From contig NZ_JAANTH010000002.1 in assembly GCF_011734195.1 (NCBI RefSeq), forward strand, positions 186,001 through 250,000: a DNA stretch of 64,000 nt, given 5' to 3'. Position 1 is the stretch's first letter, and every line of letters begins with the position of its first letter. Below, piece after piece: positions 21,898 through 64,000 of the stretch. The notes beneath the pieces were generated by a model. That model saw nothing but the letters and a program-made list of their open reading frames with translations. It had not been told where the DNA came from and did not search any database. The position numbers and the translations under genes are program-made. Origin of the DNA: Halobacterium sp. R2-5 (GTDB lineage Archaea; Halobacteriota; Halobacteria; Halobacteriales; Halobacteriaceae).

Positions 21898-21962
21898 ACC
21901 CGGGGGTTCGTCCCGGGGCCGCTTTTCGCTATCGGTAAGTGACTGTGCGGCGACGGGGCTGT

Positions 21963-23009
21963 ATGCACCGTGCTATCGGGGAGCGGGACCTCGCCGACAC
22001 GGCCGTCGACGAGGCGACCGCACGCGACGTGTTCCGCGACATGGTTCTCGCCAGGGAGTTCGACGAGCGCGCGCTGTCCCTCCAGCGCCGCGGCTGGATG
22101 CCCGGCTACCCGCCGTTCCGCGGGCAGGAGGGGTCGCAGGTCGGCGCCGCGCACGCGATGGCGGACGACGACTGGCTGTTCCCGACGTACCGCTCGAACG
22201 CGATGCAGCTCGCGCGCGGCGTCCCCGCCAGCGACATTCTCCTCTTCCGCCGGGGGTACGCGGAGTACCACTCCGACCACGACGTCGACAACTTCCCGCA
22301 GGCCATCCCCATCGCGAGCCAGATTCCACACGCCGTCGGCGCCGGCATGGCGATGGACTACACGAGCGACGACAACGCCGCCATCGCGTACTTCGGGGAC
22401 GGCGCGACCAGCGAGGGCGACTTCCACGAGGCGATGAACTTCGCGGGCGTCTTCGACGCGCCCGTCGTCTTCCTCTGCGAGAACAACAACTGGGCCATCT
22501 CGCTGCCGCGCGAGAAGCAGACCGCCAGCGACTCCATCGCCGTCAAGGCCGAGGCGTACGGCTTCGAGGGCGTCCAAGTGGACGGCAACGACCCGGTCGC
22601 CGTCTACGAGACTATCACGGACGCGCTGGAGGACGCCCGTAGCGGCAGTCCCGTACTCGTCGAGAGCCTCACCTACCGGCAGGGCGCGCACACCACTAGC
22701 GACGACCCCGACCGCTACCGGCCCGAGGAGGAAGACCTCCCAGAGTGGCGGACCGCCGACCCGCTCGACCGCTTCGAGGCGTACCTCCGCGAGCAGGGCG
22801 TAATCGACGACGAGTTCGTCGAGGAGTGCCGCGAGGACGCCGAGGCCGAGCTTTCTGCTGCCATCGACGCCGCCGAGGAGGTCGGCGAGCCCGACGTCGA
22901 CGAGCTCTTCGACTACGCGTACGCCGAACGCACCCCCCGCATCGGCGACCAGAAGCAGTGGCTGGAGTCGTACCTCGACGACCACGACCCGCAGGAACAG
23001 GAGTTCTGA
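21963..23009 (+). CDS. Orphan thiamine-diphosphate dehydrogenase E1 component, alpha subunit
   Basis: This 348-residue protein belongs to the 2-oxoacid dehydrogenase E1-alpha family. The ThDP/Mg motif begins GDGATSEGDFHEA and closes with ENNNWAIS. E1-alpha normally pairs with an E1-beta subunit, an E2 acyltransferase and an E3; none follows here. The next gene on this strand is a TrkA-like protein. Another complete alpha/beta pair is at 56.7-58.7 kb. ATG 21963 is preferred over GTG 21939 because an AT-rich TATCGGTAAG box lies 25-32 nt before it. The 2-oxoacid used cannot be told from the sequence. Confidence 0.88.
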   Translation: MHRAIGERDLADTAVDEATARDVFRDMVLAREFDERALSLQRRGWMPGYPPFRGQEGSQVGAAHAMADDDWLFPTYRSNAMQLARGVPASDILLFRRGYAEYHSDHDVDNFPQAIPIASQIPHAVGAGMAMDYTSDDNAAIAYFGDGATSEGDFHEAMNFAGVFDAPVVFLCENNNWAISLPREKQTASDSIAVKAEAYGFEGVQVDGNDPVAVYETITDALEDARSGSPVLVESLTYRQGAHTTSDDPDRYRPEEEDLPEWRTADPLDRFEAYLREQGVIDDEFVEECREDAEAELSAAIDAAEEVGEPDVDELFDYAYAERTPRIGDQKQWLESYLDDHDPQEQEF

Positions 23010-47199: not shown

Positions 47200-48447
47200 T
47201 CAGGCGTCCGGCCAGCGCTGGTCGTCGTAGTTCTCGTCGCGCCGGCTGTCGAAGGACTGCTCGAGCTTGCGGACGAGTTCCGCCTTCTCGGTGGCGCCGA
47301 TGCGCGCGAGCTCGTCGGCTTTCGCGACGGGCTTGGGCGGGCCGGCCTCGGCGGCGACCTGGCTCGTGACGTAGCGCTCGACGGCGTCCCGGCAGTCCTC
47401 GTCCTCGGCGAACGCGCACGGTAGCTCGACCTTGTGCACGAGGTCCGTGCGGGGGTCGTAGACGACGAAGAACGCGACCTCGTAGCACTCCGCGGGGAGC
47501 TCGCGCTCGACGCCGAGTTCGCTGGCGTCCGCGAACACGCCGTCCGCGCCGAGCGTGGACGTGAACCAGCCCGTCCACGCGAGGTCGTCGGTGACGCGCT
47601 CGTAGTCGTCGCCGTCGAACTCGCGGCGTTCGAGCACCTGCGAGAAGAACGCGGCGTCGCTGGCCCACGGCGTCGGCCGGCCGCGGTCGCGGAGCGCGCG
47701 CACGAGCGCCTGACTCGCCGGGCTCTTCACGAACCCCGCGAGCGGCACGTCCTTCTCGGCGAAGCGCTCGACGAGCCGGACGTAGTTCTCCAGGACTTCC
47801 GCCACCAGTTCGTTCTCGGTGACGAGGTCCGCGAGACTGGCGTGGCGGTCCGCCCAGTTCACGAGCTGCTTCGGGTAGACCGGACCGTCCAGTAGCAGCA
47901 AGTCGTCGACTTCGCCGGCGTGTTCGAGGGCGTGGTGGCTCTCCGCGAGGTAGAGCGCGAGCCCGTGGACGACGCGCTCCTGGTCGCGGGCGAGCGGCGC
48001 GGTGTGGACGATGCGGCCGCGCCAGTACCCCTCGTCGCGTTTGCGCCAGTCGGTGCCCATCTTCACGGTGGCGTCGTTGGAGTGGACGCTCGTGATGGTG
48101 GTGCGGGAGCGGTGGAGGTCGAGGTCGCTGGGGGTCGCGCTCATCGCGGCCTGCGCGAGGTCGAGCACCAGGCCGTTCTTGAACGTCTTCGGGTTGATGG
48201 TGCCGGAGTCGAGGCCGTGGGCGGTGTCGAACGGCGACGGCTGGAGCGCGAGTTCCTCGACGTCGGCGACGCAGCGGCGCTGTTCGCCGAGCGGTTCGAG
48301 CACGGGGCCGTCGTCGCCGTAGAGGGGGTCGAGGTAGTTCGCCCACGTCTCCTCGGCGACGTCGCGGTGCTCCTCGGCGTCCACCTCGTGGCGAATCTGG
48401 CTGGCGAGGTCCGCGATGCCGTCGAAGTGGACGGGGTCGAGGGTCAT
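47200..48447 (-). CDS. nurA: NurA-domain 5'-3' nuclease
   Basis: This 415-residue protein belongs to the NurA family, which acts with HerA and Mre11-Rad50 to resect DNA ends. Catalytic-site candidates are the acidic residues in the HGLDSGTINPK region and in LLLLDGPVYPKQ; the C-terminal part carries AFFVVYDPRTD. Start ATG 48447 agrees with a CTATTTG box at about 48471-48477. The gene is not adjacent to herA, unlike in Sulfolobus or Pyrococcus. Confidence 0.87.
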   Translation of the reverse strand: MTLDPVHFDGIADLASQIRHEVDAEEHRDVAEETWANYLDPLYGDDGPVLEPLGEQRRCVADVEELALQPSPFDTAHGLDSGTINPKTFKNGLVLDLAQAAMSATPSDLDLHRSRTTITSVHSNDATVKMGTDWRKRDEGYWRGRIVHTAPLARDQERVVHGLALYLAESHHALEHAGEVDDLLLLDGPVYPKQLVNWADRHASLADLVTENELVAEVLENYVRLVERFAEKDVPLAGFVKSPASQALVRALRDRGRPTPWASDAAFFSQVLERREFDGDDYERVTDDLAWTGWFTSTLGADGVFADASELGVERELPAECYEVAFFVVYDPRTDLVHKVELPCAFAEDEDCRDAVERYVTSQVAAEAGPPKPVAKADELARIGATEKAELVRKLEQSFDSRRDENYDDQRWPDA

Positions 48448-48562
48448 GGCCGTGCCTGCGAGGCGGAGGGTCAAATAGGCCGCCGGTCTCGGGCGGTTTA
48501 CTCGCGACCGAGCGAACTTTTGTCAGAATAGTTAAATTGCTGTGCGTGGTAGGTAGTCGTAG

Positions 48563-48826
48563 ATGTCGCAGGGCGACTCCGCGGTCAACTGGCGGCGCAC
48601 CGACGACGGCGTCGAACTGTACGACGAGACGAACCCCGACGCGTGGATCCGGATGGCGGTCGAACCCGGCGCGCCCGCCGAGGAGCGGCCGTACAGCGTC
48701 TGCCCGGAGTGCGGGCTCGTCGCCGCCCAGCGCACCGTCCCCGGCCGGCACATGGCGTGCGCGGACTGCGGCGCCGAGTTCGACGTCGACGCGGCGACCG
48801 ACGCCCGCGCGCCCGACGGCGACTGA
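48563..48826 (+). CDS. Small zinc-ribbon protein (87 aa)
   Basis: Two cysteine pairs, CPEC and CADC, 16 residues apart form a zinc ribbon (SVCPECGLVAAQRTVPGRHMACADCG). The flanks are acidic. GTTAAATT at 48531-48538 lies 25-32 nt before the ATG and is a strong box A. Function is unknown; such proteins often bind nucleic acid. Confidence 0.78.
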   Translation: MSQGDSAVNWRRTDDGVELYDETNPDAWIRMAVEPGAPAEERPYSVCPECGLVAAQRTVPGRHMACADCGAEFDVDAATDARAPDGD

Positions 48827-48883
48827 CGCGGGCGGCGTGCCGCGGACGACACCTAAATACGGACGGCCGCCGCACTCTCGACC

Positions 48884-50460
<1,577 letters not shown>

Positions 50461-50464
<4 letters not shown>

Positions 50465-50616
50465 CTGTCGTCCCGTCTCCCGGACACGCGCTCTCGCGCT
50501 TCTTCGCGGCTCATTCGCTCGGTGTTCTCGGCCTCCGAGCGCACCAGCGAGTACAGCACGAGCCCCGCGACTACCGCGAAGAGGGCGAACAGTCCAAACA
50601 GGGCGGCAGCGGACAT
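50461..50616 (-). CDS. Small single-TM protein (51 aa)
   Basis: On the minus strand ATG 50616 opens MSAAALFGLFALFAVVAGLV, one TM helix, then a charged tail (LVRSEAENTERMSREEARER) and ends at TAA. A GAATACG box at about 50642-50648 is correctly placed. The stop shares TTAG with gpmI. The charged tail and promoter make it a likely real small membrane protein. Confidence 0.65.
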
Positions 50617-50653
50617 ACTCGGCCGTAGCCCGCCCAGCCACGTATTCGTTGTG

Positions 50654-52171
50654 TCAGTCCGCGGTGTAGACGACGTCGCCGTCCACGACGGTCGCCGCCA
50701 CGTCGATGTCCCGGATTTCGCCGGGAGACTCCCACGGCGACTCGCCGAGCACCACGAGGTCCGCGAGCGCGCCGTCCTCGAGCACTCCCTGTTCGTCCTC
50801 CCGGAAGCCGGCGTACGCGCCGCCGCTCGTGTACGCGCGCAGCGCGTCCGTAACCGAGAGTTCCTGTGCTTCCGTCGGCGGGTTCACCGCGCAGTGGACG
50901 CCGAGCAGCGGGTCGAGGGGCATGCAGTCGCTGCCGAACGCCAGCGGCACGCCCGCCTCGCGGTAGGCCGGGAAGCGGTTGCTCGCCTCGCGGCGCTCCG
51001 TCCCGAGGCGGTCCTCGTAGAGACCCTCGCTGCCCGCCCACTTCAGGAAGTTCGGCTGCATCGACGCCACCACGCCCAGGTCGCTCATACGCTCGATGGC
51101 GTCGTCGCTCGCGAGCTCGACGTGTTCGATGCGGTGGCGGCTCGCGCCCGCGTCCGCGCAGTCCTCGTAGGCGTCGAGCACCGCGTCGATTGCCTCGTCG
51201 CCGATTGCGTGCGCGGTCACCTGCAGGCCGGCGTCGTCGGCGCGCGCCACGAGGTCAGCGAGCTCGTCGGGGCCGACGACCCACTGCCCGGTCTCCTCGG
51301 GCGCGTCCGCGTACGGCTCCGAGAGCTTGGCGGTGTGGCCGCCGAGGCTGCCGTCCGTGAACGTCTTCACGCCGCCGACCTCGACCATCCCGGAGCCGTG
51401 GTTCGTGCGCAGTCCCGTCTCTACGAGGGCGTCGAGGTGGTCGCTCCAGTAGTTCAGGCGCACGCGCACCGACAGCTCGCCCGCGCGGTCGAGTTCGCGG
51501 AACGCCCGCGGCGAGTGCGACTGCCGCACCATGTCGTGGACGGCGGTGACGCCGTTCTCGTTGGCCTCGCGCTGGGCCGCGCGCAGCAGCGACTTCGTCT
51601 CCTCGGGGCCGGCGTCGCCCGCGTCGTGGACGACTTCCACGGCGTCCTCGACGATGCGGCCGTCGCCGACCACGTCGCTGTCGGGCAGCTCGTCGCCGTA
51701 CTCGTTGAGGACGACCGCGTTCACGGTCGCCGTGTGCATGTCCTCGCGGACGGCCGCCACCGGCCGGTCCTCGCTGACCGCGTCGAGGTCGGACTGCCGG
51801 AGGTCCTCGCCGCCCCACGCGGACTCGTCGTACCCGAACCCGAGCACCCACTCGTCGTCCGTTTCGGCGGCCCGCTCCCGGAGGCGCTCGGTGACTTCCT
51901 CGGGCGACGACGCGCCGCGGAGGTCGGCGTGGACGCCGTACCGCCCCACCATCTCCATGTGCGTGTGCGCGTCCACGAACCCCGGGAGGACGACGCGCCC
52001 GTCGAGGTCGACGACCTCCGTGCCGGTGCCGACGAGGAACCCGACGTCGTAGTCGTTGGCGAGCTGGACGACGCGCCCGTCCCGGACCGCGAGCGCGTCG
52101 TAGGTCTCGTCCGGGTCGCCGAGCGTGTGGACCTCGCCGTTCCGCAGCACGAGGTCGGCTGCCGCAGTCAT
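50654..52171 (-). CDS. YtcJ-type amidohydrolase
   Basis: This 505-residue metal-dependent hydrolase has the metal motif PGFVDAHTHMEM near residues 62-73, a TDGSLGGHTAKLSEPY motif typical of the YtcJ/amidohydrolase-3 group, HAIGDEAID, RIEHVE and GSDCMPLDP (catalytic Asp). No signal peptide is present, so it is cytoplasmic. Substrate cannot be deduced; N-substituted formamides and related amides are used by relatives. The CGTCTAAG box at about 52196-52203 supports ATG 52171. Confidence 0.88.
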   Translation of the reverse strand: MTAAADLVLRNGEVHTLGDPDETYDALAVRDGRVVQLANDYDVGFLVGTGTEVVDLDGRVVLPGFVDAHTHMEMVGRYGVHADLRGASSPEEVTERLRERAAETDDEWVLGFGYDESAWGGEDLRQSDLDAVSEDRPVAAVREDMHTATVNAVVLNEYGDELPDSDVVGDGRIVEDAVEVVHDAGDAGPEETKSLLRAAQREANENGVTAVHDMVRQSHSPRAFRELDRAGELSVRVRLNYWSDHLDALVETGLRTNHGSGMVEVGGVKTFTDGSLGGHTAKLSEPYADAPEETGQWVVGPDELADLVARADDAGLQVTAHAIGDEAIDAVLDAYEDCADAGASRHRIEHVELASDDAIERMSDLGVVASMQPNFLKWAGSEGLYEDRLGTERREASNRFPAYREAGVPLAFGSDCMPLDPLLGVHCAVNPPTEAQELSVTDALRAYTSGGAYAGFREDEQGVLEDGALADLVVLGESPWESPGEIRDIDVAATVVDGDVVYTAD

Positions 52172-52224
52172 GTCTCGAAGGCGGGCGGCCGGGCGCTTAG
52201 ACGTTCGGGAAGCGGCCGACGGCG

Positions 52225-53391
52225 CTACTGCGTGGCGACGAGCCGGGAGACCTGCTCGCGCCACTCGTCGGCGCTGTCACGGAGCGTCTCGTAGCCGTAC
52301 TGTAGCGTCTCCTCGGGGACGTGGGCGTACTGCTGCATGTCCTCGGGGAGGCTGGCGTCCGAGACGGTCGGGATGCCGACGTTCTTCACGGCGACCTCGC
52401 GCTGGGTCTCGGCCTCCAGCATGAAGTCCGCGAACGTGTGCAGGAAGTCGTCGTTGTCGCTGCCCGCGAACCCCGCGACGCCGGAGACGTACGCGTACCC
52501 CTGGTCGTTCGGGAACGCGATCTGGTGGCGGGACATGTCGGTGTCCTCGCTCTGGGAGGCGTACACCTGGTCGGTGCTGTAGGAGACGACCATCGCGGCC
52601 TCCTCGTTGGAGTACGCGCTGTACGCGGCGTTCCACGACCCCGACGTGCGGAGGCCGTTGTCGACGAGGCGTTCCCAGTAGTCGAGGAAGCCGTCCTCGC
52701 CGTACTGTTTGACCGTCCACAGCAGGAAGCTCAGCCCCGTCACCGTGTTCTGCGGGTTCGCGAGGATGAGCTCGTCCGCCCACGCGTCCTCCGTGAGGTC
52801 GTCGAGCGTCTCCGGGGCGTCGACTGCGTTCTCGTCGTAGACGATGCAGACGTACGACGACCCCGTGGGGAGCACGCGCTGCTGGGGGTCGAACCGGTAG
52901 GCGTCCACGACGTCTTCGCTGTTCGAGATGCGCGAGGTGTCGAACCCCTGGAACAGCGACTCGTCGAGGTTGCGGTCCGCGCGCACCAGTCCGGTCGGCG
53001 TGACGCCGACGTAGCCGTCCGCGCCGAGGTCGACGCCCTGCTGTTTCCGCTGGATGAAGTCGTTCAGCTCGTTCTCGCGGACGTCCCACTCGAAGTCGAC
53101 GTCGTACTCGGACTCGAAGGCCTCCTTTACCCAGTCGCCCGCGCTCGTCGAGACGGCGTCGACGTACGCCTGCGTCGTCCCCATCGTCAGCGACTGCGGC
53201 TCGCCGCTCGTCGTCGCGGTCGTGCCGCCGGTGGTCGTGGTCGTCCCCTCCGTGGTCGCCGCTGTCGTCGAGTCGCCGCCCGTACTCGTGGTCTCGATGC
53301 AGCCCGCGAGCCCGAGCGCGGTCGTCGTCCCGACCGCAGCGACGAACCGGCGCCGGGAAGTCGAGCGCTCGCCGTCGCTCGCGTCGGTCAC
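52225..53391 (-). CDS. Thiamine-type ABC substrate-binding lipoprotein (TbpA-like)
   Basis: This 388-residue Tat lipoprotein (STSRRRFVAAVG, lipobox LAGC at about residue 31) has a Thr-rich linker and a periplasmic-binding-protein fold. The region TTQAYVDAVSTSAG to DVDFEWDV matches the thiamine-binding group. Its GTG start overlaps the stop of the thiamine-binding YkoF-like gene (GTGA), supporting thiamine or its precursor as ligand. The permease and ATPase genes are not adjacent in the window. Confidence 0.82.
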   Translation of the reverse strand: MTDASDGERSTSRRRFVAAVGTTTALGLAGCIETTSTGGDSTTAATTEGTTTTTGGTTATTSGEPQSLTMGTTQAYVDAVSTSAGDWVKEAFESEYDVDFEWDVRENELNDFIQRKQQGVDLGADGYVGVTPTGLVRADRNLDESLFQGFDTSRISNSEDVVDAYRFDPQQRVLPTGSSYVCIVYDENAVDAPETLDDLTEDAWADELILANPQNTVTGLSFLLWTVKQYGEDGFLDYWERLVDNGLRTSGSWNAAYSAYSNEEAAMVVSYSTDQVYASQSEDTDMSRHQIAFPNDQGYAYVSGVAGFAGSDNDDFLHTFADFMLEAETQREVAVKNVGIPTVSDASLPEDMQQYAHVPEETLQYGYETLRDSADEWREQVSRLVATQ

Positions 53392-53717
53392 TGCTCGCTC
53401 ACCTCCTCGCTGGCGGCCGTCCGGCCGAGGTGTGTCTCCACGCGGTCGACCTTCTCCTCGACGGCGAGGTCCTCCTCGCGGAAGTGATCGATTTTGAGCT
53501 TCGTGCTGACCCGGCCGGCGTCCACGGCCTCCGTCGCCCCCTTCGCGGCCGCGAACACCTCGTCGAGGCTATCGGCCTCGATGGTCGTCTCCATCGGGTG
53601 GGTCTCGTAGCGCACGTCGTACTCCTCCAGGGCGTCGATTGCTTTCGCGATCTCCGCGTCGAAGTCGACGTCCGGGCTGTCCAGCGGTGCGACCGACAGC
53701 ATCGCGGTGACGGTCAT
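53388..53717 (-). CDS. MTH1187/YkoF-like thiamine-binding protein
   Basis: This 109-residue ferredoxin-like-fold protein reads MTVTAMLSVAPLDSPDVDFD, with a YDVRYETHPMETTIEAD segment in the ligand-binding position. The family binds thiamine or hydroxymethylpyrimidine. It leads a two-gene unit with the TbpA-like lipoprotein. A minus-strand TATA (ATTATATTA, about 53739-53748) lies 22-31 nt before the ATG, with a palindrome adjoining it. Confidence 0.85.
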   Translation of the reverse strand: MTVTAMLSVAPLDSPDVDFDAEIAKAIDALEEYDVRYETHPMETTIEADSLDEVFAAAKGATEAVDAGRVSTKLKIDHFREEDLAVEEKVDRVETHLGRTAASEEVSEQ

Positions 53718-53730
53718 ACCACCACTTGCG

Positions 53731-53750
53731 ATTACTCAGTAATATAATCG
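53731..53750. promoter_or_regulatory. Palindromic operator candidate and TATA box of the thiamine unit
   Basis: ATTACT-C-AGTAAT (53731-53743) is a perfect 6-bp-arm palindrome lying immediately downstream of the TATA box, at roughly -14 to -26 from the start. A second nested pair CGATTA/TAATCG (53729-53750) overlaps it. A repressor bound here would block transcription. The transcript has no leader, so a TPP riboswitch is not possible. Confidence 0.55.
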
Positions 53751-53829
53751 ACTATTCACGCACCGAGTGCGTCGAACACCGCCGCTCGGGAAGGACAACC
53801 TTCAGGACGCCCCGCGAGTACCGACCTGT

Positions 53830-55041
53830 ATGACCGACGCCAGCGACCTCGCCGACCGCGTGCAGGCCGGCGACCTCCGGCTCTACGAACTCGAGGACCA
53901 CGCGGACGCCGACACCGCGGCCGCGGCGCGACGCGAACTCCTCGAACGCGAGACCGACGCGGACACGGACGCCCTCGGCGCGTTCGCGTTCGACGCCGAC
54001 GAGGTCGACCCGAACATCGAGAACCTCGCGGGCGGCACCCAGCTCCCGCTCGGCGTTGCCGGCCCCATCGCGGTCGACGGCGGCGCCGCGGACGACGAGT
54101 TCTACCTGCCGCTGGCGACCACGGAGGGCGCGCTCGTCGCCTCCGTCAACCGCGGCTGCTCGGCGATTACGGCTGCCGGCGGCGCGAACGCCCGCGTGAC
54201 GAAGGTCGGGATGACGCGCGCGCCCGTCTTCCGCGTCGAGGACGTCACCGAGGGCGCCGAGGTCGCGGAGTGGGTCGAGGAGCACTTCGACGCGCTCCGC
54301 GAGGCCGCCGAGAGCACGACGAGCCACGGCGAACTCACCGAGGTGACGCCGTACGTCGTCGGCGACAGCGTCTTCCTGCGATTCGCCTACGACACGAAGG
54401 ACGCGATGGGGATGAACATGGCCACCATCGCCACCGAGGCCGCGGCCGACGTCGTCGAATCGGAGACGCCCGCCGAACTGGTCGCGCTCTCCGGGAACCT
54501 CTGCTCGGACAAGAAGCCCGCCGCCATCAACGCCGTGGAGGGCCGCGGCCGCACCGTCACTGCGGACGTCACCATCCCCCGGGACGTCGTCGAGGAGCGC
54601 TTCGACACCACGCCGGAGGCCATCGCGGAGGCGAACACGCGGAAGAACCTCGTCGGCTCCGCGAAGGCCGGCAGCCTCGGATTCAACGCGCACGCCGCCA
54701 ACACCGTCGCCGCCGTCTTCCTCGCGACCGGGCAGGACGCCGCGCAGGTCGTCGAGGGGTCGAACGCCATCACGACCGTCGAGGACAGGGGCGACGAACT
54801 GTACGCCTCCGTGAACTTCGCGAGCCTCGAAGTCGGGACGGTCGGCGGCGGCACGAAACTCCCCACGCAGCGCGAGGCCCTCGACGTGCTCGGCGTGCGC
54901 GGCGGCGGCGACCCCGCCGGTTCGAACGCGGACGCGCTCGCGGAGATCATCGCGGCCGGCGCGCTCGCCGGCGAACTCAGCCTGCTCGCGGCGCTTGCCT
55001 CCCGGCACCTCTCCTCGGCCCACGCGGAACTCGGCCGCTGA
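53830..55041 (+). CDS. hmgA: HMG-CoA reductase
   Basis: This 403-residue class I HMG-CoA reductase uses NADPH to make mevalonate for archaeal isoprenoid lipids. Signatures are ATTEGALVASVNRGCSAI (catalytic Glu), GDSVFLRFAYDTKDAMGMNM (catalytic Asp), NLCSDKKPAAIN (Lys) and GTVGGGTKLPTQ. ATG 53830 is favoured; the frame extends upstream to 53767 without homology. It is divergent from the thiamine unit. Confidence 0.95.
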   Translation: MTDASDLADRVQAGDLRLYELEDHADADTAAAARRELLERETDADTDALGAFAFDADEVDPNIENLAGGTQLPLGVAGPIAVDGGAADDEFYLPLATTEGALVASVNRGCSAITAAGGANARVTKVGMTRAPVFRVEDVTEGAEVAEWVEEHFDALREAAESTTSHGELTEVTPYVVGDSVFLRFAYDTKDAMGMNMATIATEAAADVVESETPAELVALSGNLCSDKKPAAINAVEGRGRTVTADVTIPRDVVEERFDTTPEAIAEANTRKNLVGSAKAGSLGFNAHAANTVAAVFLATGQDAAQVVEGSNAITTVEDRGDELYASVNFASLEVGTVGGGTKLPTQREALDVLGVRGGGDPAGSNADALAEIIAAGALAGELSLLAALASRHLSSAHAELGR

Positions 55042-55080
55042 GCCGGCCACTTTCACTTTCGCCCCGCGGCAGACACGGAG

Positions 55081-55088
55081 TTATTTTA
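55081..55088 (+). promoter_or_regulatory. TATA box of the 47-residue TM protein gene
   Basis: TTATTTTA stands 22-29 nt before ATG 55110 in otherwise GC-rich DNA. A well-placed box of this quality is the main evidence that the small gene is expressed. Confidence 0.6.
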
Positions 55089-55109
55089 CTGTCGGCCGTG
55101 GACTGGAAT

Positions 55110-55253
55110 ATGAACGCACACTCGGGCGACGAGCCGGACGGACAGCCGCGAGCGAGGTGGATCGTGTTGGCGCTCCGGGTGCTGAAGCTCCTGCTCACGG
55201 TGCTCGTGCTCGCGCTGACGCTGCTGCGCGGGCTCGCCGGCGGGCCGCTCTAG
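55110..55253 (+). CDS. Small single-TM protein (47 aa)
   Basis: The protein reads MNAHSGDEPDGQPRARWIV, then a leucine-rich helix (LKLLLTVLVLALTLLRGLAG). A hydrophilic start, one TM helix and a strong TATTTTA box support it. Its TAG shares CTAG with the stop of the convergent gene. No family is known. Confidence 0.6.
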   Translation: MNAHSGDEPDGQPRARWIVLALRVLKLLLTVLVLALTLLRGLAGGPL

Positions 55254-55588
55254 TCGACGGCGAGCCACGCGAGGTACGCGCCCGCCGCCAGCACCACGAC
55301 GACGCCGCCAGCGGTCAGGGCTCTGTTCTCCAGTTGCTCCCCAGCGAGCAACAGCAGCCAGCCGCCGACCGCGAGCAGGTTCCCGACGCCGGCCGCCGGC
55401 TCGCCCGCGAGCACGCGCAGCACCGCCGCGAGCGCGAACCCCGCTGCGAACACGCCGGCGAGCGCCGCGAGCAGCGACACGCCGACGAGCGGCCACGACG
55501 CGGCGCTCGCCAGGACCACGACGACCGCAGCGCTCACCAACGTCGCGCCGACGAGCAGCCGCCACGCCCGCACCTCCCGTCTACCCAT
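55250..55588 (-). CDS. Four-helix membrane protein (112 aa)
   Basis: Four hydrophobic helices follow a basic N-terminus (MGRREVRAWR). No charged or catalytic residues are seen in the helices apart from the loop AGEQLENRAL. No family is recognised. Low sequence complexity (Ala/Leu/Val) makes homology calls unsafe. Confidence 0.65.
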   Translation of the reverse strand: MGRREVRAWRLLVGATLVSAAVVVVLASAASWPLVGVSLLAALAGVFAAGFALAAVLRVLAGEPAAGVGNLLAVGGWLLLLAGEQLENRALTAGGVVVVLAAGAYLAWLAVD

Positions 55589-55636
55589 CGTGCTGACGTG
55601 GCGGGGCCACCGCCAAGAGCGTGGCGGGTGACCGGG

Positions 55637-56161
55637 CTACAGCAGCCGGTAGCCGTCGCCGGTCTCGGTCACGTCGCCGGCGCGCCGCAACTTCTCCAGC
55701 GCGCGCTCGACGTACTCGCCGTCGACGCCGTGCTCGGCCGCGAACGCCTTCACCTCGGCCCCGGTGGGCTCGTCGAGTTCGCGCAGCGCCGTTCGCACGG
55801 CCTCGCGCTTCCCGAGGCTGCGCCCGGACTGCTCGACGCGGTCCTCGACGGCGGACACCTCGTCGACGTCGACGCCCGCCGAGTCGAGGAATTCCTCGTC
55901 GCTCATCCCCGCGTCCTCGGCGAAGTCCCCGAGCGTCGTGAAGTCCTCCAGCTCCGCGAACGCGTCGCCGTGGCCCGCGCGGTTCGCGAGCATCGACGCC
56001 CGCACCTCGCGAGCGTGGTCCTCGTCGTCGGTCTGCACGAACTTCCGGAGCTTCGAGAACTGGTGGCGGGTCTCGCAGCGCGGGCACCCCGACGTGTCGG
56101 GCCGCCCCTCCAGCACCCAGAGCCCGCCGCAGTTCGAGCAGCCGACGACAGCGTACGTCAT
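55637..56161 (-). CDS. DUF5817-like protein (zinc ribbon plus winged helix)
   Basis: This 174-residue protein has an N-terminal zinc ribbon with CSNC and CPRC about 15 residues apart, followed by TRHQFSKLRKFVQTDD. An acidic linker and a C-terminal winged-helix-like region (GKREAVRTALRELDEPTGAEV, ALEKLRRAGDV) complete it. It matches, from memory, the haloarchaeal DUF5817 family. The architecture suggests nucleic-acid binding. GTTTATGC at about 56188-56195 is an excellent box A. Confidence 0.78.
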   Translation of the reverse strand: MTYAVVGCSNCGGLWVLEGRPDTSGCPRCETRHQFSKLRKFVQTDDEDHAREVRASMLANRAGHGDAFAELEDFTTLGDFAEDAGMSDEEFLDSAGVDVDEVSAVEDRVEQSGRSLGKREAVRTALRELDEPTGAEVKAFAAEHGVDGEYVERALEKLRRAGDVTETGDGYRLL

Positions 56162-56237
56162 CGTCGTTCGCTCGGGCGTCGTCGTGCATAAACGTCCCGT
56201 CCCGGGGTCGCTCGCCGCGCGAACGGGGCGAACGTTG

Positions 56238-56609
56238 ATGGCGCCTCCGCCTGTCGGTCTCGACGTGACCGACGCCGACCGCAGCGACCGCTGGTGGCTA
56301 CCGATAGCCGCGCTCGCCGCGACGCTCCCCGTGCTCGCCGTGTTCGCGCTCGTGCTGCCGCCGGACCCGGCCGCGATGCTGCCCGCGTTCGCCGTCGCCC
56401 TGCTCGGGTTCGCGCTCTCGCTGTCCTCGCCCGTGTTCCGCTACTTCGACAGGCGCTTCCTCGCCGCCGCGAGCGCGTGGACGCCCTCGGTCTGGTACTA
56501 CCTGATGGCCGTCACCGCAGTCGCACCGCTGGTCGCCGCCGCGTACGTCTACCGCCGCAACCAGCGCGTCGGCGTTCCCGCGAACCCGTTCGCGGCCCGC
56601 CGCGGATAA
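56238..56609 (+). CDS. Membrane protein, unknown (123 aa)
   Basis: Three hydrophobic segments and a short charged tail (YVYRRNQRVGVPANPFAARRG) are seen. ATG 56238 gives 123 residues. GTG 56265, preceded by a weak ACGTTGATG box at the right distance, would give 114. No family is recognised. Confidence 0.6.
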   Translation: MAPPPVGLDVTDADRSDRWWLPIAALAATLPVLAVFALVLPPDPAAMLPAFAVALLGFALSLSSPVFRYFDRRFLAAASAWTPSVWYYLMAVTAVAPLVAAAYVYRRNQRVGVPANPFAARRG

Positions 56610-56665
56610 CCGACCGTTGTGCTTTCGCGCTAACTTTTATCGTCGTCGCCGTCACACCCACAACC

Positions 56666-57679
56666 ATGGTTGGTGTCAACACACTACTATCGATGTACGA
56701 GAACGTGGTGACGGCGCGGCACTACGAGGAGCGACTGCAGGAAGTGTACCTCGAGGGCAAACAGCCCGCGTTCGACATCTCCGCCGGGACGATCCCCGGC
56801 GAACTCCACCTCGCGGCCGGCCACGAGGCAGCGGCCGCGGGCGTCTGCGCGCACCTCCGCGAGGAGGACACCGTGACCGCGCCCCACCGCCCGCACCACG
56901 TCGCCATCGCGAAGGGCGTCGACCTGCGACGGATGACTGCGGAGATTCTCGGCCGCGAGACCGGGCTCTGCAGGGGGAAGGGCGGCCACATGCACCTCTT
57001 CGACCCGGACGTGAACTTCGCGTGCAGCGGCATCATCGCGCAGGGCTGCCCGCCCGCGGTAGGCGCCGCGATGGCCGCCGACAAGCGCAACGAGGACAGC
57101 GTCGCCGTCGCCTACCTCGGCGAGGGCGCCGTCGACCAGGGCGCGTTCCTCGAGTCGCTGAACCTCGCGGCCGTCCAGAACCTCCCCGTGGTGTTCGTCG
57201 TCGAGGACAACGACTGGGCCATCAGCATGCCCCAGGAGCGGGTCACCGACGTCCACACACCCGCCGAACGGGCCGACGGCTTCGACATGCCGGGCGTGCG
57301 CGTCGACCACGACGACGCCGTCGCCGTCTACGAGGCGGCCCGCGACGCAGTCGGCCGTGCGCGAAACGGCAACGGCCCGACGCTGCTCGACGTACAGGTC
57401 CACCGCCGGATGGGTCACTTCATGGGGGACGCCGAGAGCTACCGACCCGACGAGGACAGCGAGCGCGCCCAGCGCCTCGACGCCATCGAGCGCCTCGCCG
57501 AGGATCTCCGGGAGCACGGCGTCGAGGACGCCGAACTGAACGAGATTCGGGAAGACGCCGAGGAGCGCGTCGAGGACGCCATCGAGTGGGCGCGTGACCA
57601 GCCCGAACCCGACCCGGAAGACGCCTACGAGGACGTGTTCGTGGACGAAACGGCCGCCGCCAGCGGGGGTGACGACTGA
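56666..57679 (+). CDS. 2-oxoacid (pyruvate/acetoin-type) dehydrogenase E1-alpha
   Basis: This 337-residue E1-alpha subunit has the ThDP motif GEGAVDQGAFLESLNLAAVQN closed by EDNDWAIS, and GKGGHMHLFDP, a block typical of acetoin/pyruvate dehydrogenases. CTTTTATC at 56634-56641 is a strong TATA box 25-32 nt before the ATG. It is translationally coupled to E1-beta (TGATG) and then to a mini-lipoyl protein. The substrate could be pyruvate, acetoin or a branched-chain 2-oxoacid. Confidence 0.88.
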   Translation: MVGVNTLLSMYENVVTARHYEERLQEVYLEGKQPAFDISAGTIPGELHLAAGHEAAAAGVCAHLREEDTVTAPHRPHHVAIAKGVDLRRMTAEILGRETGLCRGKGGHMHLFDPDVNFACSGIIAQGCPPAVGAAMAADKRNEDSVAVAYLGEGAVDQGAFLESLNLAAVQNLPVVFVVEDNDWAISMPQERVTDVHTPAERADGFDMPGVRVDHDDAVAVYEAARDAVGRARNGNGPTLLDVQVHRRMGHFMGDAESYRPDEDSERAQRLDAIERLAEDLREHGVEDAELNEIREDAEERVEDAIEWARDQPEPDPEDAYEDVFVDETAAASGGDD

Positions 57680-58710
57680 TGTCCAAGCCCGCCAGCGACC
57701 CCGGTGAGGGGAGCGCCGACCGCGAGCTCACGATGAGCCGCGCGATGGTCGACGCGATCGCCTCGGAGATGCGCGAGAGCGAGGACGTCTTCTACATGGG
57801 CGAGGACGTCCAGGACTACGGCGGCATCTTCGACTCCACGGAGGGCCTGCTCGACGAGTTCGGGCGGGACCGAATTATGGACGTCCCCATCAGCGAGACG
57901 GCGTACGTCGGCGCGGCCGTCGGCGCCGCCCAGTCCGGGATGCGGCCCATCGCGGAGATCATGTTCGCTGACTTCGTCGGCGTCTGCCTCGACCAGGTGT
58001 ACAACCAGATGGCGAAGAACACGTACATGAGCGGCGGCAGCGTCAACGTCCCGATGGTGCTGACGACCGCGGTCGGCGGCACGTACAACGACGCCGCCCA
58101 GCACTCGCAGACGCTGTACGGGCTGTTCGCGCACCTCCCCGGGATGAAGGTGGTCGTCCCGTCGACGGCGTACGACGCGAAGGGCCTGATGCACGCCGCC
58201 GTCCGCGACGACGACCCCGTCGTCTACATGTTCCACAAGCGCCTGATGGGCATCGGCTGGATGCCCGCGCCCGAGGGACCGAAGACACCCGTCCCGGACG
58301 AGGACTACACGATCCCGCTCGGCGAGGCGAACGTGAAACGCGAGGGCGACGACGTCACTGTGGTCACACTCGGCCTGCACGTCCACCGCGCACTCGAAGC
58401 CGCCGACGAACTCGAGGGCGACGTGGACGTCGAAGTGATCGACCTCCGGACGCTCGTCCCGTTCGACACCGAGACGGTCGTCGACTCCGTGCGGAAGACC
58501 GGGAACCTCGTGGTCGTCGACGAAGACTACGAGTCGTTCGGCGTGACCAGCGAAGTCACCGCGCGCGTCGCCGAGCGCGCTCCCGAGGCCTTGGAGGCGG
58601 TCGAGCGCGTCGCGGTGCCGGACGTCCCCATCCCGTACTCGCGGCCGCTGGAGAACGAGGTCAACCCAGACAGCGACGACATCGTCGAGGCCGTCGAGTC
58701 CCTCAAATGA
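57679..58710 (+). CDS. 2-oxoacid dehydrogenase E1-beta
   Basis: This 343-residue transketolase-like beta subunit reads LTMSRAMVDAIASEM, MGEDVQDYGGIF, DVPISETAYVGAAVGAA and QHSQTLYGLFAHLPGMKVV (active-site His). Its start overlaps the E1-alpha stop by one base, with a GGGGGTGA Shine-Dalgarno-like stretch upstream. Together the two form the alpha2-beta2 decarboxylase. Confidence 0.9.
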   Translation: MSKPASDPGEGSADRELTMSRAMVDAIASEMRESEDVFYMGEDVQDYGGIFDSTEGLLDEFGRDRIMDVPISETAYVGAAVGAAQSGMRPIAEIMFADFVGVCLDQVYNQMAKNTYMSGGSVNVPMVLTTAVGGTYNDAAQHSQTLYGLFAHLPGMKVVVPSTAYDAKGLMHAAVRDDDPVVYMFHKRLMGIGWMPAPEGPKTPVPDEDYTIPLGEANVKREGDDVTVVTLGLHVHRALEAADELEGDVDVEVIDLRTLVPFDTETVVDSVRKTGNLVVVDEDYESFGVTSEVTARVAERAPEALEAVERVAVPDVPIPYSRPLENEVNPDSDDIVEAVESLK

Positions 58711-58961
58711 GCGTGGACATCGACTCTGCCGACGTCTGGCCCGAGGACGCCGACGACGTCGACGAGGCCGTCGTCTCGAACTGGTTCGTCCGCGAGGGCG
58801 GCAGCGTCGAGGAAGGCGAGACGGTCTGCGAGATCCAGATCGAGAAGGTCAGCGTCGACGTCCCCGCGCCGGCCGGCGGCACGCTCGCGGAGCGAACAGT
58901 CCCGGAGAACGGCGAGTTCGCACGCGGCGACGTCCTCGGCCGCATCGAAGCACTCGACTGA
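58707..58961 (+). CDS. Stand-alone lipoyl-domain protein (84 aa)
   Basis: The whole protein is one lipoyl/biotinyl domain: VSNWFVREGGSVEEGETVCEI, then the lipoylation hairpin QIEKVSVDV with the target lysine, and GGTLAERTVPENGEF. It overlaps the E1-beta stop (ATGA). No E2 acyltransferase domain is attached and no E2 or E3 follows, so it may act as a mobile carrier like glycine-cleavage H protein, or feed an E2 encoded elsewhere. Confidence 0.85.
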   Translation: MSVDIDSADVWPEDADDVDEAVVSNWFVREGGSVEEGETVCEIQIEKVSVDVPAPAGGTLAERTVPENGEFARGDVLGRIEALD

Positions 58962-59005
58962 GGCGAGTTCTTCGGGCCCTCGGCTTCCGCCGACGACATC
59001 GACAC

Positions 59006-59296
59006 CTAGCGCTCGACCGCGAACCCTTCGTCTTCGAGGACGTCTTTCACGCGGTCCTCGTGGTCGCCCTGCACCTCGACGCTGGTCTCCTTGGCGGTGC
59101 CGCCGGCGCCGAGGCGCTTCTTCAGCGTCGTCGCCACGTCACCGACGTCCGTGGCGTCCGGGTCGAACCCCTCCACGACAGTGACCGGTTTGTCGTACGT
59201 GCGCCGCTCGACGCGGACCGACAGCTCCTGCTCGGCGCGCGCGAGGTCGTCCATTCCCGGTACGTCGGCTCCCTCGAACGGGTCGTCGTCTGACAC
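59006..59296 (-). CDS. Translation initiation factor SUI1/eIF1 homologue
   Basis: This 96-residue SUI1-domain protein reads VRVERRTYDKPVTVVEGFDP and LKKRLGAGGTAKETSVEVQGDH, the eIF1 core that helps start-codon selection on the 30S subunit. GTG 59296 is chosen because it gives the usual haloarchaeal length and an AT-containing GTACTT box lies about 27 nt upstream; ATG 59323 would add nine residues of no homology. Confidence 0.9.
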   Translation of the reverse strand: MSDDDPFEGADVPGMDDLARAEQELSVRVERRTYDKPVTVVEGFDPDATDVGDVATTLKKRLGAGGTAKETSVEVQGDHEDRVKDVLEDEGFAVER

Positions 59297-59387
59297 ACTA
59301 CAGCGTACGCCGTCGAGACGCAAGTACGTTGCCGCCGCAGCGCTGTCGGCCGGTAGCGCGCCGAAAGAAAACAGGCGTGAAAGCGAC

Positions 59388-60647
<1,260 letters not shown>

Positions 60648-60724
60648 AGTCGTATGAAGGTCACCCGATACGCCTAAAAGAACTGCTGTTTCCGCCCGCC
60701 ACGTCAACAATTACCGCGTCTCGG

Positions 60725-61498
60725 TCAGTCTCCCGTCTCGGGGGCCGGACGGACGAAGTCCGCGAGCGCGACGAGCAGTCCGAGCGTCCAGCCGACGGGC
60801 ACCGCGAGCCCGAACCACATCCCGACGTAGGCGGCGCCCGCGAGCGTGAACCGCGAGCGCAGCGTCTCGGCGACGCCCGCGACCGAGAGCGGGTTGTCGA
60901 GCAGCCACACCGCGAACGTGTAGCTGCTCGGGAACACCCACTCGCCGAGCGTCGGCGAGTACAGCGCGGCGACGACGGGCGGCAGGAACACCGCGGTGAC
61001 GCCGAACGGGTACGCGAGGAGTACGGTCGTCGCGCGGCCGCCCCAGCGCGCGAACGCCGTCGCGAGCGCCGCCGACACCACTGCGACCCCGCCGCCCGCG
61101 GCCACCGCGAACACGCCCTCGCGGGAGAACTCCAGCAGGTAGACGCCGACGGTCAGCCCCGCCCAGACGACCGTCGAGAGCCCGACGACGCCGAGGATGC
61201 CGAGCGCGAGCGCGGTGCCGTACAGCCGCCGCGCGTAGAACCGCACGGTGAATCCGGCGAGCGCGAGCGGGTAGCCGACCGCGAGCGCGAGCACGCCGAG
61301 CAGCGCCCACAGGCCGAACGCGACCCGCTGGGGGATCGTCTCGGGCTCCCAGCGTCCGAGCGTCGGGTGGGGGTCGCGCTGGCGCGGGAACGCGACGTCC
61401 ATCCAGCCGACGTGCAGCCGCCCCAGGTCCGTGCGGAGCTGCTGCCACAGGCTCGGCGACGCCGCCTCCCGGCGGTCGGTGCGTTGCTCCTGCGCCAT
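60725..61498 (-). CDS. Six-TM membrane protein next to the second cetZ
   Basis: This 257-residue protein has a hydrophilic N-terminal 55 residues (LHVGWMDVAFPRQRDPHPTLG) and six hydrophobic helices. No family is recognised. It starts 59 bp after the CetZ paralogue and on the same strand, so it is probably co-transcribed. The N-terminal part with conserved-looking Trp/Pro residues would be cytoplasmic and could contact CetZ. Confidence 0.7.
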   Translation of the reverse strand: MAQEQRTDRREAASPSLWQQLRTDLGRLHVGWMDVAFPRQRDPHPTLGRWEPETIPQRVAFGLWALLGVLALAVGYPLALAGFTVRFYARRLYGTALALGILGVVGLSTVVWAGLTVGVYLLEFSREGVFAVAAGGGVAVVSAALATAFARWGGRATTVLLAYPFGVTAVFLPPVVAALYSPTLGEWVFPSSYTFAVWLLDNPLSVAGVAETLRSRFTLAGAAYVGMWFGLAVPVGWTLGLLVALADFVRPAPETGD

Positions 61499-61557
61499 TT
61501 ATGCCTCGCGAGCCCGCGTGCTGGCTCGCCGTCCGCGCCACGCCCGTGCTAGCTCGG

Positions 61558-62739
61558 TCATATCGGGTCGAGGCGGTCCTCGTCGTCCGTGATGAGTTCC
61601 GAGATTTCGTCCTGACGGCCGGCGGCCTGCTGTTCGATGTTCGACTGGGCGTCCACGGCCTGCTCCTGGAGTCGGTCGATGCGGGGCACGTCGGTCACGT
61701 TCGACAGCAGTACGGTCGCCGACAGCACGTCGCTGCCCGGTCGCGGGTCGTCGCCCGCGAGCACCTCCACGCTCCCAATTTCGCCCTCCAGCCACTGCCG
61801 CGCGCGGACGAGCCCCTTCTGGGCGAGCTCCGTCGGCGGTCCGGAAACGACGACGAGCGCGCGCTCCGTCGAGTGGACCTGTGCGGGGCAGGTGAGCCGC
61901 GACTGGACCGCGCGCCGGACGAGGCTGTGGACCTTCGTCGCGGCGTCGACGTCGTCGCCGTCGCTCGACCCGCCCGAGCGCACGCGGCTCAACAGCCCCT
62001 GCTGGCGGCGCGTGGACTGGTCGACGTCCGTCTCCGCGAACGCGATGGAGCTGACGCCGCCGACCGCCAGCGTCCGGTTGATGTCGCTGGAGTCCATCGC
62101 GTTCTCCGAGACGGTCGTGCCGTCGTACTCGCCCGCTCCCAGCAGCGTCACCACGCGCTTGGCGATCTCGTAGTTCGTGCGCTCGTAGCCGTCCTCGATG
62201 GTGTCGCCGCCGTCCTTCCAGGCGTTGTTGTCGAAGACTATCAGGCCGTCAGTCTCCTCGGTGTACGACTGCACGGAGCGAGCGGCGTTCAGCGACGCCC
62301 GCCCGCCCTCGTCGCGGCTCGGGAGGATGCCGAGGCCGTAGACCGGTTCGTCGTAGCGGTCGGCGAGGATCTCCGCGAGCACCGGTCCCCCACCGCTGCC
62401 CGTGCCGCCGCCGAGGCCGCCGATGACGAGGAACGCGTCGATGTCGTGGAGCGGGACGCTGTCGAGGAAGCGCGCGAGCTCCGGACGGTCCTGCCGTGTC
62501 AGCTCCGAGCCGAGCTCGGGGTCGGCGCCCGCGCCGTGGCCCTTCGAGCGCTCGTCGGTCTGCCCGATGAGCACCCGGTTCTGTCGCGGGATGTGCGTGA
62601 TCTTCTCCAGGTCGACGCTCGCGGTGTTGACCACCGCGGAGAACCGACAGAGCGACCGGCCCGTCTCCCCCTCGTACTCCACGATTCTGTCGGCGATCTT
62701 CCCTCCCGCGTTCCCGAACCCGATTACGGCCAACTTCAT
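61558..62739 (-). CDS. cetZ2: CetZ paralogue (CetZ2-like tubulin-family GTPase)
   Basis: This 393-residue protein is clearly related to CetZ1 at 18271-19449: GFGNAGGK at 7-14, VNTASVDL near 38, GGGTGSGG at 110-117, and the same domain order with an acidic C-terminus (ITDDEDRLDPI). The assignment to CetZ2 rather than another paralogue is a guess. The upstream TATA-like box (TATAGC, near 62771-62776) implies a short 5' leader, as with cetZ1. Confidence 0.9.
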   Translation of the reverse strand: MKLAVIGFGNAGGKIADRIVEYEGETGRSLCRFSAVVNTASVDLEKITHIPRQNRVLIGQTDERSKGHGAGADPELGSELTRQDRPELARFLDSVPLHDIDAFLVIGGLGGGTGSGGGPVLAEILADRYDEPVYGLGILPSRDEGGRASLNAARSVQSYTEETDGLIVFDNNAWKDGGDTIEDGYERTNYEIAKRVVTLLGAGEYDGTTVSENAMDSSDINRTLAVGGVSSIAFAETDVDQSTRRQQGLLSRVRSGGSSDGDDVDAATKVHSLVRRAVQSRLTCPAQVHSTERALVVVSGPPTELAQKGLVRARQWLEGEIGSVEVLAGDDPRPGSDVLSATVLLSNVTDVPRIDRLQEQAVDAQSNIEQQAAGRQDEISELITDDEDRLDPI

Positions 62740-62896
62740 GGGTTCCCACGGGTGGGCACAACCTTTTGCTATACAGTGACTACCACTACCGTTTGAAGTG
62801 TAACGACCGTGTAAAAACAGCCTAACGACCGTGGCCGTCCGGCTCCGTTCCCGCGAAAACCCCACCACTAAGAATTCGGCGCCGGAAGATTCGGTC

Positions 62897-63838
62897 ATGA
62901 ACGTAATCGTACACGGCGGCGCGGGTTCGACCCCGGACGAACCGGTCCCGCGACGGGCGACGCTCGACGAGGCCGCGAACGCGGGCGCCTCCGAGTCCGA
63001 CCCCGTAGACGCAGTCGAGGCCGCGATTCGCGTCCTCGAAGCCGACACGCGGTTCAACGCCGGGACGGGCGGCGCGGTGCAGTCCGACGGCGTGATTCGG
63101 ACCGACGCCGGCGTGATGACCAGCGACCGCGAGGCCGGCGCCGCGGCGTCGATGCCCGGCGTCGAGGCCGCGGTCCCCGTCGCGCGGGCGGTGATGGAGG
63201 AGACGCCCCACGTCCTCCTGAACGGCGTCCACGCCGTCGACTTCGCCGCGGACGTCGGCGTGGACGTGGAGTGCGACCTCTGGAGCGAGGACACCCGACA
63301 GCGCTGGGACGACCTCGACGACCACCCCGAGGGGAGCCCGCTCGACCACCTCGATTGGATTCGCGACAAGTTCGGACAGCGCGTGGCCGAGCGTAGCGAG
63401 GCCACGGAACGAGCGAGCGGCGAAGCCGCGAGCAAGGACCCCGAGGGACGCGCCCGGAAGGACCACGACACGGTCGGTGCCGTGGCGTTCGACGGGGAGA
63501 AACTGGCCGCGGCGACGTCGACGGGCGGCCGCTGGCTCGCGCTCGCGGGCCGCGTCGGCGACGTCCCCCAGATCGGCTCGGGGTTCTACGCCGCGCCCGC
63601 TGGCGCCGCGTCCGCGACGGGCGCCGGCGAGGACATCGCGAAAGCCACGCTGACGCGCCGCGCCGTCCGCCACCTCGAAGACGGGCTGGACGCGCAGGAA
63701 GCCGCCGACCGCGCAATCGCGGAGTTCGGCGAGCTCACCGGGTCGTCGGCGGGCGTCGTCGTGCTCGACAGCGACGGCGGGTTCGGGGAGGCGTTCAACT
63801 CCGAGGAGATGCAGACGGCGAGGGCTCGAATGGAGTGA
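62897..63838 (+). CDS. Isoaspartyl peptidase / type 2 L-asparaginase (Ntn hydrolase)
   Basis: This 313-residue precursor is cleaved to alpha and beta chains before Thr192 (HDTVGAVAFDG), the catalytic nucleophile. Other marks are VIVHGGAG at the start, NAGTGGAV and VGDVPQIGSGFYA. It removes isoaspartyl dipeptides or asparagine. The loop before the cleavage site (residues about 163-185) is an Arg/Glu/Ser-rich stretch from repeat-like DNA. A CTAAGAATT box near 62868-62876 supports ATG 62897. Confidence 0.88.
   Translation: MNVIVHGGAGSTPDEPVPRRATLDEAANAGASESDPVDAVEAAIRVLEADTRFNAGTGGAVQSDGVIRTDAGVMTSDREAGAAASMPGVEAAVPVARAVMEETPHVLLNGVHAVDFAADVGVDVECDLWSEDTRQRWDDLDDHPEGSPLDHLDWIRDKFGQRVAERSEATERASGEAASKDPEGRARKDHDTVGAVAFDGEKLAAATSTGGRWLALAGRVGDVPQIGSGFYAAPAGAASATGAGEDIAKATLTRRAVRHLEDGLDAQEAADRAIAEFGELTGSSAGVVVLDSDGGFGEAFNSEEMQTARARME
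63385..63450 (+). repeat. Repeat-like GC segment within the isoaspartyl peptidase gene
   Basis: This short patch (GTGGCCGAGCGTAGCGAGGC, then GAACGAGCGAGCGGCGAAGC) has the GAGCG/GAAGC flavour of the intergenic elements and keeps the reading frame. It encodes the linker just before the autocleavage Thr. Confidence 0.4.
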
Positions 63839-64000
63839 GAGCCCTCGGAATCGCGAACGGCGAACGCAGTGGGCCGTGAGCGGCGAGGAAGTGAGCGGAG
63901 CGAACTCCCGCGGAATCAGCGAACGCCGATAGTCCAGTAGCACGCAACCGCTCGGTCGTCGAGCCACGCCAAACCGCCCCAGCGTTCTTAACCGACCGCG
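63839..64000. other. Window-end intergenic stretch
   Basis: No gene is seen after the asparaginase-type gene. A TTCTTAACC box at 63984-63992 probably belongs to a gene beyond the window. The preceding sequence is GC-rich with GAGCG runs similar in flavour to the intergenic elements. Confidence 0.5.

Follow-up and report, generated by a model that had tools for sequence, protein, structure and literature searches.

The E1-alpha, E1-beta and lipoyl protein genes of Halobacterium sp. R2-5 (hereafter, the trio) probably encode the E1 heterotetramer of a split-E2 acetoin/2-oxoacid dehydrogenase together with its detached lipoyl domain, and this enzyme would pass its acyl group to an E2 in trans. 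The operon lies on contig C2 of the 2.98 Mb genome (G000) and within the window, that is, the whole stretch of 64,000 nucleotides analyzed here, whose numbering is used below. Judged by the gene content of its relatives, the trio is a split-E2 system that is without its own E2 gene here, and thus an enzyme of a known kind rather than new chemistry.

Organization of the operon

The features of the operon are as follows.

56635–56640, + strand: TATA-like TTTTAT, read from the sequence, 26 bases 5' of the E1-alpha start codon; a possible leaderless promoter
56666–57679, + strand: E1-alpha, 337 aa (PF00676, E = 4.6e-69)
57679–58710, + strand: E1-beta, 343 aa (PF02779/PF02780)
58707–58961, + strand: free-standing lipoyl protein, 84 aa (PF00364, E = 5.8e-13)
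58845–58847, + strand: Lys47 codon AAG, for the residue expected to be lipoylated, within E-K-V at the turn of the hairpin
58962–59005, no strand: 44-base gap after the lipoyl gene, where relatives carry a free E2 catalytic gene

The E1-alpha and E1-beta genes overlap by 1 base, the E1-beta start sitting inside the E1-alpha stop codon, and the E1-beta and lipoyl genes by 4 bases; the downstream neighbor (59006–59323) is convergent and begins 44 bases past the lipoyl gene. Matches to PF00676, PF02779, and PF02780, all above cut-offs, identify the trio E1-alpha and E1-beta as those of a heterotetrameric 2-oxoacid/acetoin dehydrogenase E1, and the sequence-only reading was thus right in seeing a complete E1 encoded by coupled genes. 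The E1-alpha belongs to a subfamily with the GEG...EDND signature, and the HRPH motif is present in all 83 E1 rows.

Compared with two Halobacterium relatives, dN/dS is 0.11–0.16 for E1-alpha, 0.15–0.22 for E1-beta, and 0.25–0.26 for the lipoyl gene. According to these ratios, the three genes are under purifying selection, and hence all of them look functional; due to the same ratios and to the conservation across haloarchaea, the trio is not a chance arrangement.

The free lipoyl protein

The 84-residue product had been read as a free lipoyl carrier, and both the PF00364 match and the structural model bear this out. The Lys residue of the QIEKVSV motif is Lys47, which does not vary across an alignment of 17 free lipoyl proteins; the predicted structure (15 relatives) is a confident lipoyl fold with mean pLDDT 96, and in it Lys47 occupies the turn between strands 39–45 and 48–53. 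The top PDB matches of the sequence are E2 lipoyl domains, and the top fold matches of the model are lipoyl domains of E2/2-oxoacid dehydrogenases. As far as sequence and model can tell, the protein is an E2-type lipoyl domain and a predicted carrier with Lys47 as the attachment residue.

We rejected its identity as a biotin carrier or GcvH, since E2 lipoyl domains are the best match in both sequence and fold; in the Pfam scan the protein gave no GCV_H match that would place it by sequence with GcvH or LbpA. An H-protein-like partner, suggested earlier, finds no support. The GCV_H matches of the genome lie elsewhere than the lipoyl gene. Two of them are strong (contig C3, 4970–5326, and contig C2, 491022–491363), the second one within a 407-aa open frame.

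Distribution of the trio

Searched for in other genomes, as had been proposed from the sequence, the same trio is found repeatedly. The E1-alpha ortholog occurs in 54 of the 195 genomes of the order (71–100% identity, one ortholog being split; paralogs do not exceed 46%), and the lipoyl gene adjoins E1-beta in all 30 orthologous loci fetched from these genomes, while 294 genomes of the phylum yielded 15 matches, all 15 within the same order. The loci from named genomes are the best 80 of 579 candidates; in 77 of these 80, a free lipoyl ORF of 77–95 aa directly follows E1-beta. Among the three loci with no such call, L123 and L124 run into contig ends, and Haloquadratum L112 is without the carrier; L113 and L114 are duplicates from one genome. 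Two trios, L091 and L108, belong to bacterial MAGs that carry the labels Opitutae and Gammaproteobacteria, and have bacterial-looking neighbors. Taken together, these comparisons mark the trio as an operon of long standing in haloarchaea.

A conserved partner gene beside the trio other than E2 was considered and rejected, as the only widely recurring genes are the three themselves. Some genera share synteny, namely, icd in 19 of 81 loci, asparaginase in 16, and HMG-CoA reductase in 11 (the best 80 of 579 plus the window).

Split-E2 operons in relatives

Downstream sequence of at least 1000 bases was available for 75 loci (from the best 80 of 579; L097 and L099 have too little for this count). 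In 17 of the 75, a free-standing E2 catalytic domain gene comes next after the lipoyl gene, two of the 17 copies being broken (L090 and L105), and in the remaining 58 the next gene is not E2. The haloarchaeal free E2 is a catalytic domain of approximately 230–280 aa with no lipoyl domain, and its DHRxxDG catalytic motif is intact in all 13 aligned copies. In Natrialba magadii, the same four genes are annotated, with the free E2 after the lipoyl gene; PF00198 is the sole domain of this protein, the one free E2 scanned, and as it has no E3-binding domain, no tethered complex is predicted. One haloarchaeal operon (G138) has a ligase-type fifth gene.

Five bacterial plasmid records, from Gemmobacter, Phaeobacter, Roseibium, Rhodococcus opacus, and Sphingomonas, have the order E1-alpha, E1-beta, lipoyl protein (77 aa), E2 catalytic domain, with E1-alpha 51–54% identical to that of the trio. 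They resemble the trio in the first three genes, their order, the GEG motif, and the separate lipoyl protein, but differ from it in having kept the free E2 catalytic gene and, in four out of five cases, in having a ligase, ligase-like or lipA fifth gene: the latter is annotated as lipoate ligase in Phaeobacter, as lipA in Rhodococcus, and as hypothetical in Gemmobacter and Roseibium, where its sequence reads ligase-like, whereas in Sphingomonas other genes follow the free E2 of a four-gene operon. A record from Erwinia, at 42% identity, has E1-alpha and E1-beta and no annotated lipoyl gene. Since the free E2 follows the lipoyl gene in relatives, the free lipoyl protein can be regarded as the lipoyl half of a split E2. 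Our literature search in a limited library found no description of the four-gene operon or of the link to an acetoin-type E2.

An E2 remnant downstream, which the sequence-only reading had named as evidence that would count against it, was rejected here: when three free E2 proteins were used as tblastn queries, no E2 sequence was found in 47666–64000 at E ≤ 1e-3. In the relatives, on the other hand, an intact or broken free E2 does stand at this place in the 17 of 75 loci (from the best 80 of 579), so that the counter-evidence named beforehand is largely present, in relatives but not in this genome.

The same counts bear on the possibility that the carrier works independently of any E2, that is, that E1 reduces or acylates it for use in another reaction or by another electron acceptor, much like GcvH or LbpA. 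In the window lineage the trio is under purifying selection even though 58 of the 75 loci (from the best 80 of 579) have no E2 next to it, as one would expect in that case; however, the carrier is an E2-type lipoyl domain by PDB sequence and fold matches, the genome has separate GCV_H matches, and relatives pair the carrier with an E2 gene, no other neighbor being widely conserved, so we consider E2-independent use improbable. The earlier proposal of a non-canonical reaction for the free carrier is likewise not supported, given that in relatives the lipoyl gene can be followed by a free E2 catalytic gene.

It is less probable still that the operon has lost its E2 and is on its way out. This would agree with the broken E2 genes in L090 and L105, with stops inside the E2 gene in two further sampled genomes (G043 and G121), and with E1 genes truncated beside a transposase-like (G114, L153) or an integrase-like gene (G054, L154), but the trio of the window lineage is intact, with dN/dS of 0.11–0.26. 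At the truncated loci of G114 and G054, the lipoyl gene and the free E2 are intact next to the truncated E1 genes.

E2, E3, and lipoylation genes of the genome

The absence of E2 and E3 noted from the sequence holds for the surroundings of the trio and does not hold for the genome, which contains all the needed partners. A genome check for E2, E3, and ligase genes, proposed at the same time, identified three E2 genes, two E3 genes, LipA, and two LplA/LipB-type proteins. Each E2 shares its open frame with a lipoyl domain, and none lies beside the trio; two of them, on contigs C1 and C2, belong to complete clusters with E3, one of which is adjoined by lipA. Both E3 dihydrolipoyl dehydrogenases match TIGR01350 above the cut-off, and neither lies beside the trio. 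The third E2 belongs to an acetoin-type cluster on contig C3, with an NAD-kinase-like gene that resembles AcoX.

The C3 protein (L146:4686–6563) is a 625-aa fusion of a lipoyl domain, an E3-binding domain (two stretches), the E2 catalytic domain, and a C-terminal OsmC domain.

The E2 catalytic domain of the C3 protein shares 60% identity with the N. magadii free E2, compared with approximately 36.5% for the other two E2s of the genome, and a free-E2 profile matches only the C3 protein at E ≤ 1e-75. The nearest paralog of the trio E1-alpha is the C3 acetoin-type E1-alpha (46%), the four others being 28–35% identical. Due to these three observations, the C3 E2 is the best candidate, and by sequence similarity the most likely partner of the carrier.

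Further E1 genes of the genome include a second E1-alpha in the window (21939–23009, + strand; TIGR03181 above the cut-off), with no E1-beta recognized adjoining it and a next gene that reads TrkA-like, and an E1-alpha/E1-beta pair (L149:5118–7709, near 1022 kb of contig C2), with no lipoyl or E2 gene recognized beside it and a next ORF of 135 aa that looks like a thioesterase.

Proposed mechanism and co-occurrence with E2

A split-E2 dehydrogenase acting in trans would work as follows. Lys47 would be lipoylated by a lipoate ligase or octanoyltransferase together with LipA; E1 would cleave an alpha-hydroxyketone or a 2-oxoacid on thiamine diphosphate, and the free carrier would be reductively acylated. 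The carrier would then diffuse to the E2 core of another locus, the acetoin-type E2 of C3 being the likeliest, where the acyl group would be transferred to CoA, and an E3 of the genome would reoxidize the dihydrolipoyl arm with NAD.

The distribution of E2 domains agrees with a requirement for E2 and restricts the choice of the partner. An E2 domain is present in 53 of the 54 trio genomes, the exception (G089) being 70% complete, and both bacterial MAGs contain E2s; as E2 is found in 175 of the 195 genomes of the order, the co-occurrence is weak (Fisher p = 0.016, phylogeny ignored). Acetoin-type E2s were found in 18 of 41 trio genomes without the free E2, in 11 of 141 genomes without the trio, and in none of 13 genomes with the trio and the free E2, in counts that ignore phylogeny and genome size and with an E-value cut that misses other acetoin-like clusters (in G050, a free E2 occurs along with an E1 paralog of 40% identity). 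By the same search, neither a free nor an acetoin-type E2 turned up in 23 of the 54 trio genomes, and therefore a C3-type partner cannot be general. Most of these 23 have exactly one E2 match (e.g., G072, G129, and G175). The most economical explanation is that the carrier can generally work with an E2 in trans.

Two readings arise from these data. The carrier may serve the E2/E3 of a housekeeping 2-oxoacid dehydrogenase, encoded on C1 or C2, in which case the trio would be an alternative E1 plus a lipoyl plug-in for a common core. In trio genomes with a single non-acetoin E2, any E2 used must be that one; however, the C1 and C2 E2 domains are only approximately 36.5% identical to the free E2 of the trio operons, while the acetoin-type E2 reaches 60%, and we regard the housekeeping partner as unlikely. 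A wider reading, to which we give slightly less than an even chance, is that haloarchaea perform an oxidative acyl transfer in which the lipoyl protein is diffusible and, like an acyl carrier protein, takes acyl groups from its own E1 and delivers them to the E2 cores of other complexes, so that one E2/E3 set serves several E1s. A dedicated E2 would then be dispensable, which would explain both the scattered presence and the decay of the E2 gene.

The case of Haloquadratum walsbyi J07HQW1 (G197; L112:8908–11315) points the same way as a carrier that needs E2, as far as one MAG can. The E1 pair is retained there, on a long branch, with no lipoyl gene; no E2 domain was found in the genome, and its only biotin/lipoyl domain is part of a 630-aa frame.

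Evolution of the split system

In the E1 tree, the haloarchaeal trio has the five bacterial split operons as its sister group (support 100/99), and the acetoin clusters branch apart; L049 and L096 (short E1-beta match) and L123 and L124 (no E1-beta match) were left out of this tree. The bacterial MAG trios L091 and L108 fall inside haloarchaea or at their base, depending on the tree. The presence of the E2 catalytic gene is scattered on the E1 tree, with 9–10 changes by a quick method. In the E2 tree, built without L087, L090, L105, and some near-copies, haloarchaeal free E2s intermingle with fused acetoin-type E2s, and the bacterial free E2s are not their nearest relatives.

Thus the split lipoyl protein looks old in these phylogenies, while the haloarchaeal E2 catalytic gene, being nearest to the fused acetoin-type E2s, may be a later recruit from acetoin clusters rather than ancestral, subsequently lost in places. 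Due to the same grouping, the E2 gene may have been either lost or never gained in the window lineage.

Comparison with known systems

An unattached lipoic-acid-binding domain was reportedly described in the OADHC2 operon as early as a 2002 paper, and archaeal single-domain lipoyl proteins were noticed in 2014. HMG-CoA reductase and icd flank the trio both in the window and in the Haloferax loci L056–L058 and L065.

According to a 2021 review, which cites work of 2002, 2007, and 2010 for oadhAB2, HVO_2595/HVO_2596 of Haloferax volcanii is an E1 pair for which no substrate was found, pyruvate and 2-oxoglutarate being excluded (PMC8305020). A table there gives the OADHC2 E1 pair as approximately 40% identical to the acetoin E1 and marks it "no" for equivalence to the Pelobacter acetoin E1 (PMC8305020). 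In locus numbering, HmgR (HVO_2583; PMC6282799) and isocitrate dehydrogenase (HVO_2588; PMC9051519) are near OADHC2. Since the synteny with the Haloferax loci and the published identities agree, the trio is taken to be the probable ortholog, in a different species, of H. volcanii OADHC2.

The acetoin dehydrogenase clusters (AcoABC-like, including that on C3) provide both the nearest E1 paralog and the E2 domain nearest to the free E2, but there a single polypeptide unites the lipoyl, E3-binding, and catalytic domains of E2, and the E1-alpha has GDG, not GEG. LbpA and GcvH are, like the trio carrier, small free lipoyl proteins encoded outside E2; the trio carrier, in contrast, matches E2 lipoyl domains and sits behind E1 genes. 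LbpA resembles GcvH and functions in sHdr sulfur oxidation (PMC10332631).

The OADHC2-type trio is thus already known, and the four-gene relatives and the link to an acetoin-type E2 are useful additions to it. OADHC2 of Haloferax has been without a substrate for two decades, and the split-E2 placement, together with a candidate acetoin-type E2, offers a testable way to find what it catalyzes. Should the carrier prove to act in trans, covalent tethering of lipoyl domains would be optional in a working dehydrogenase.
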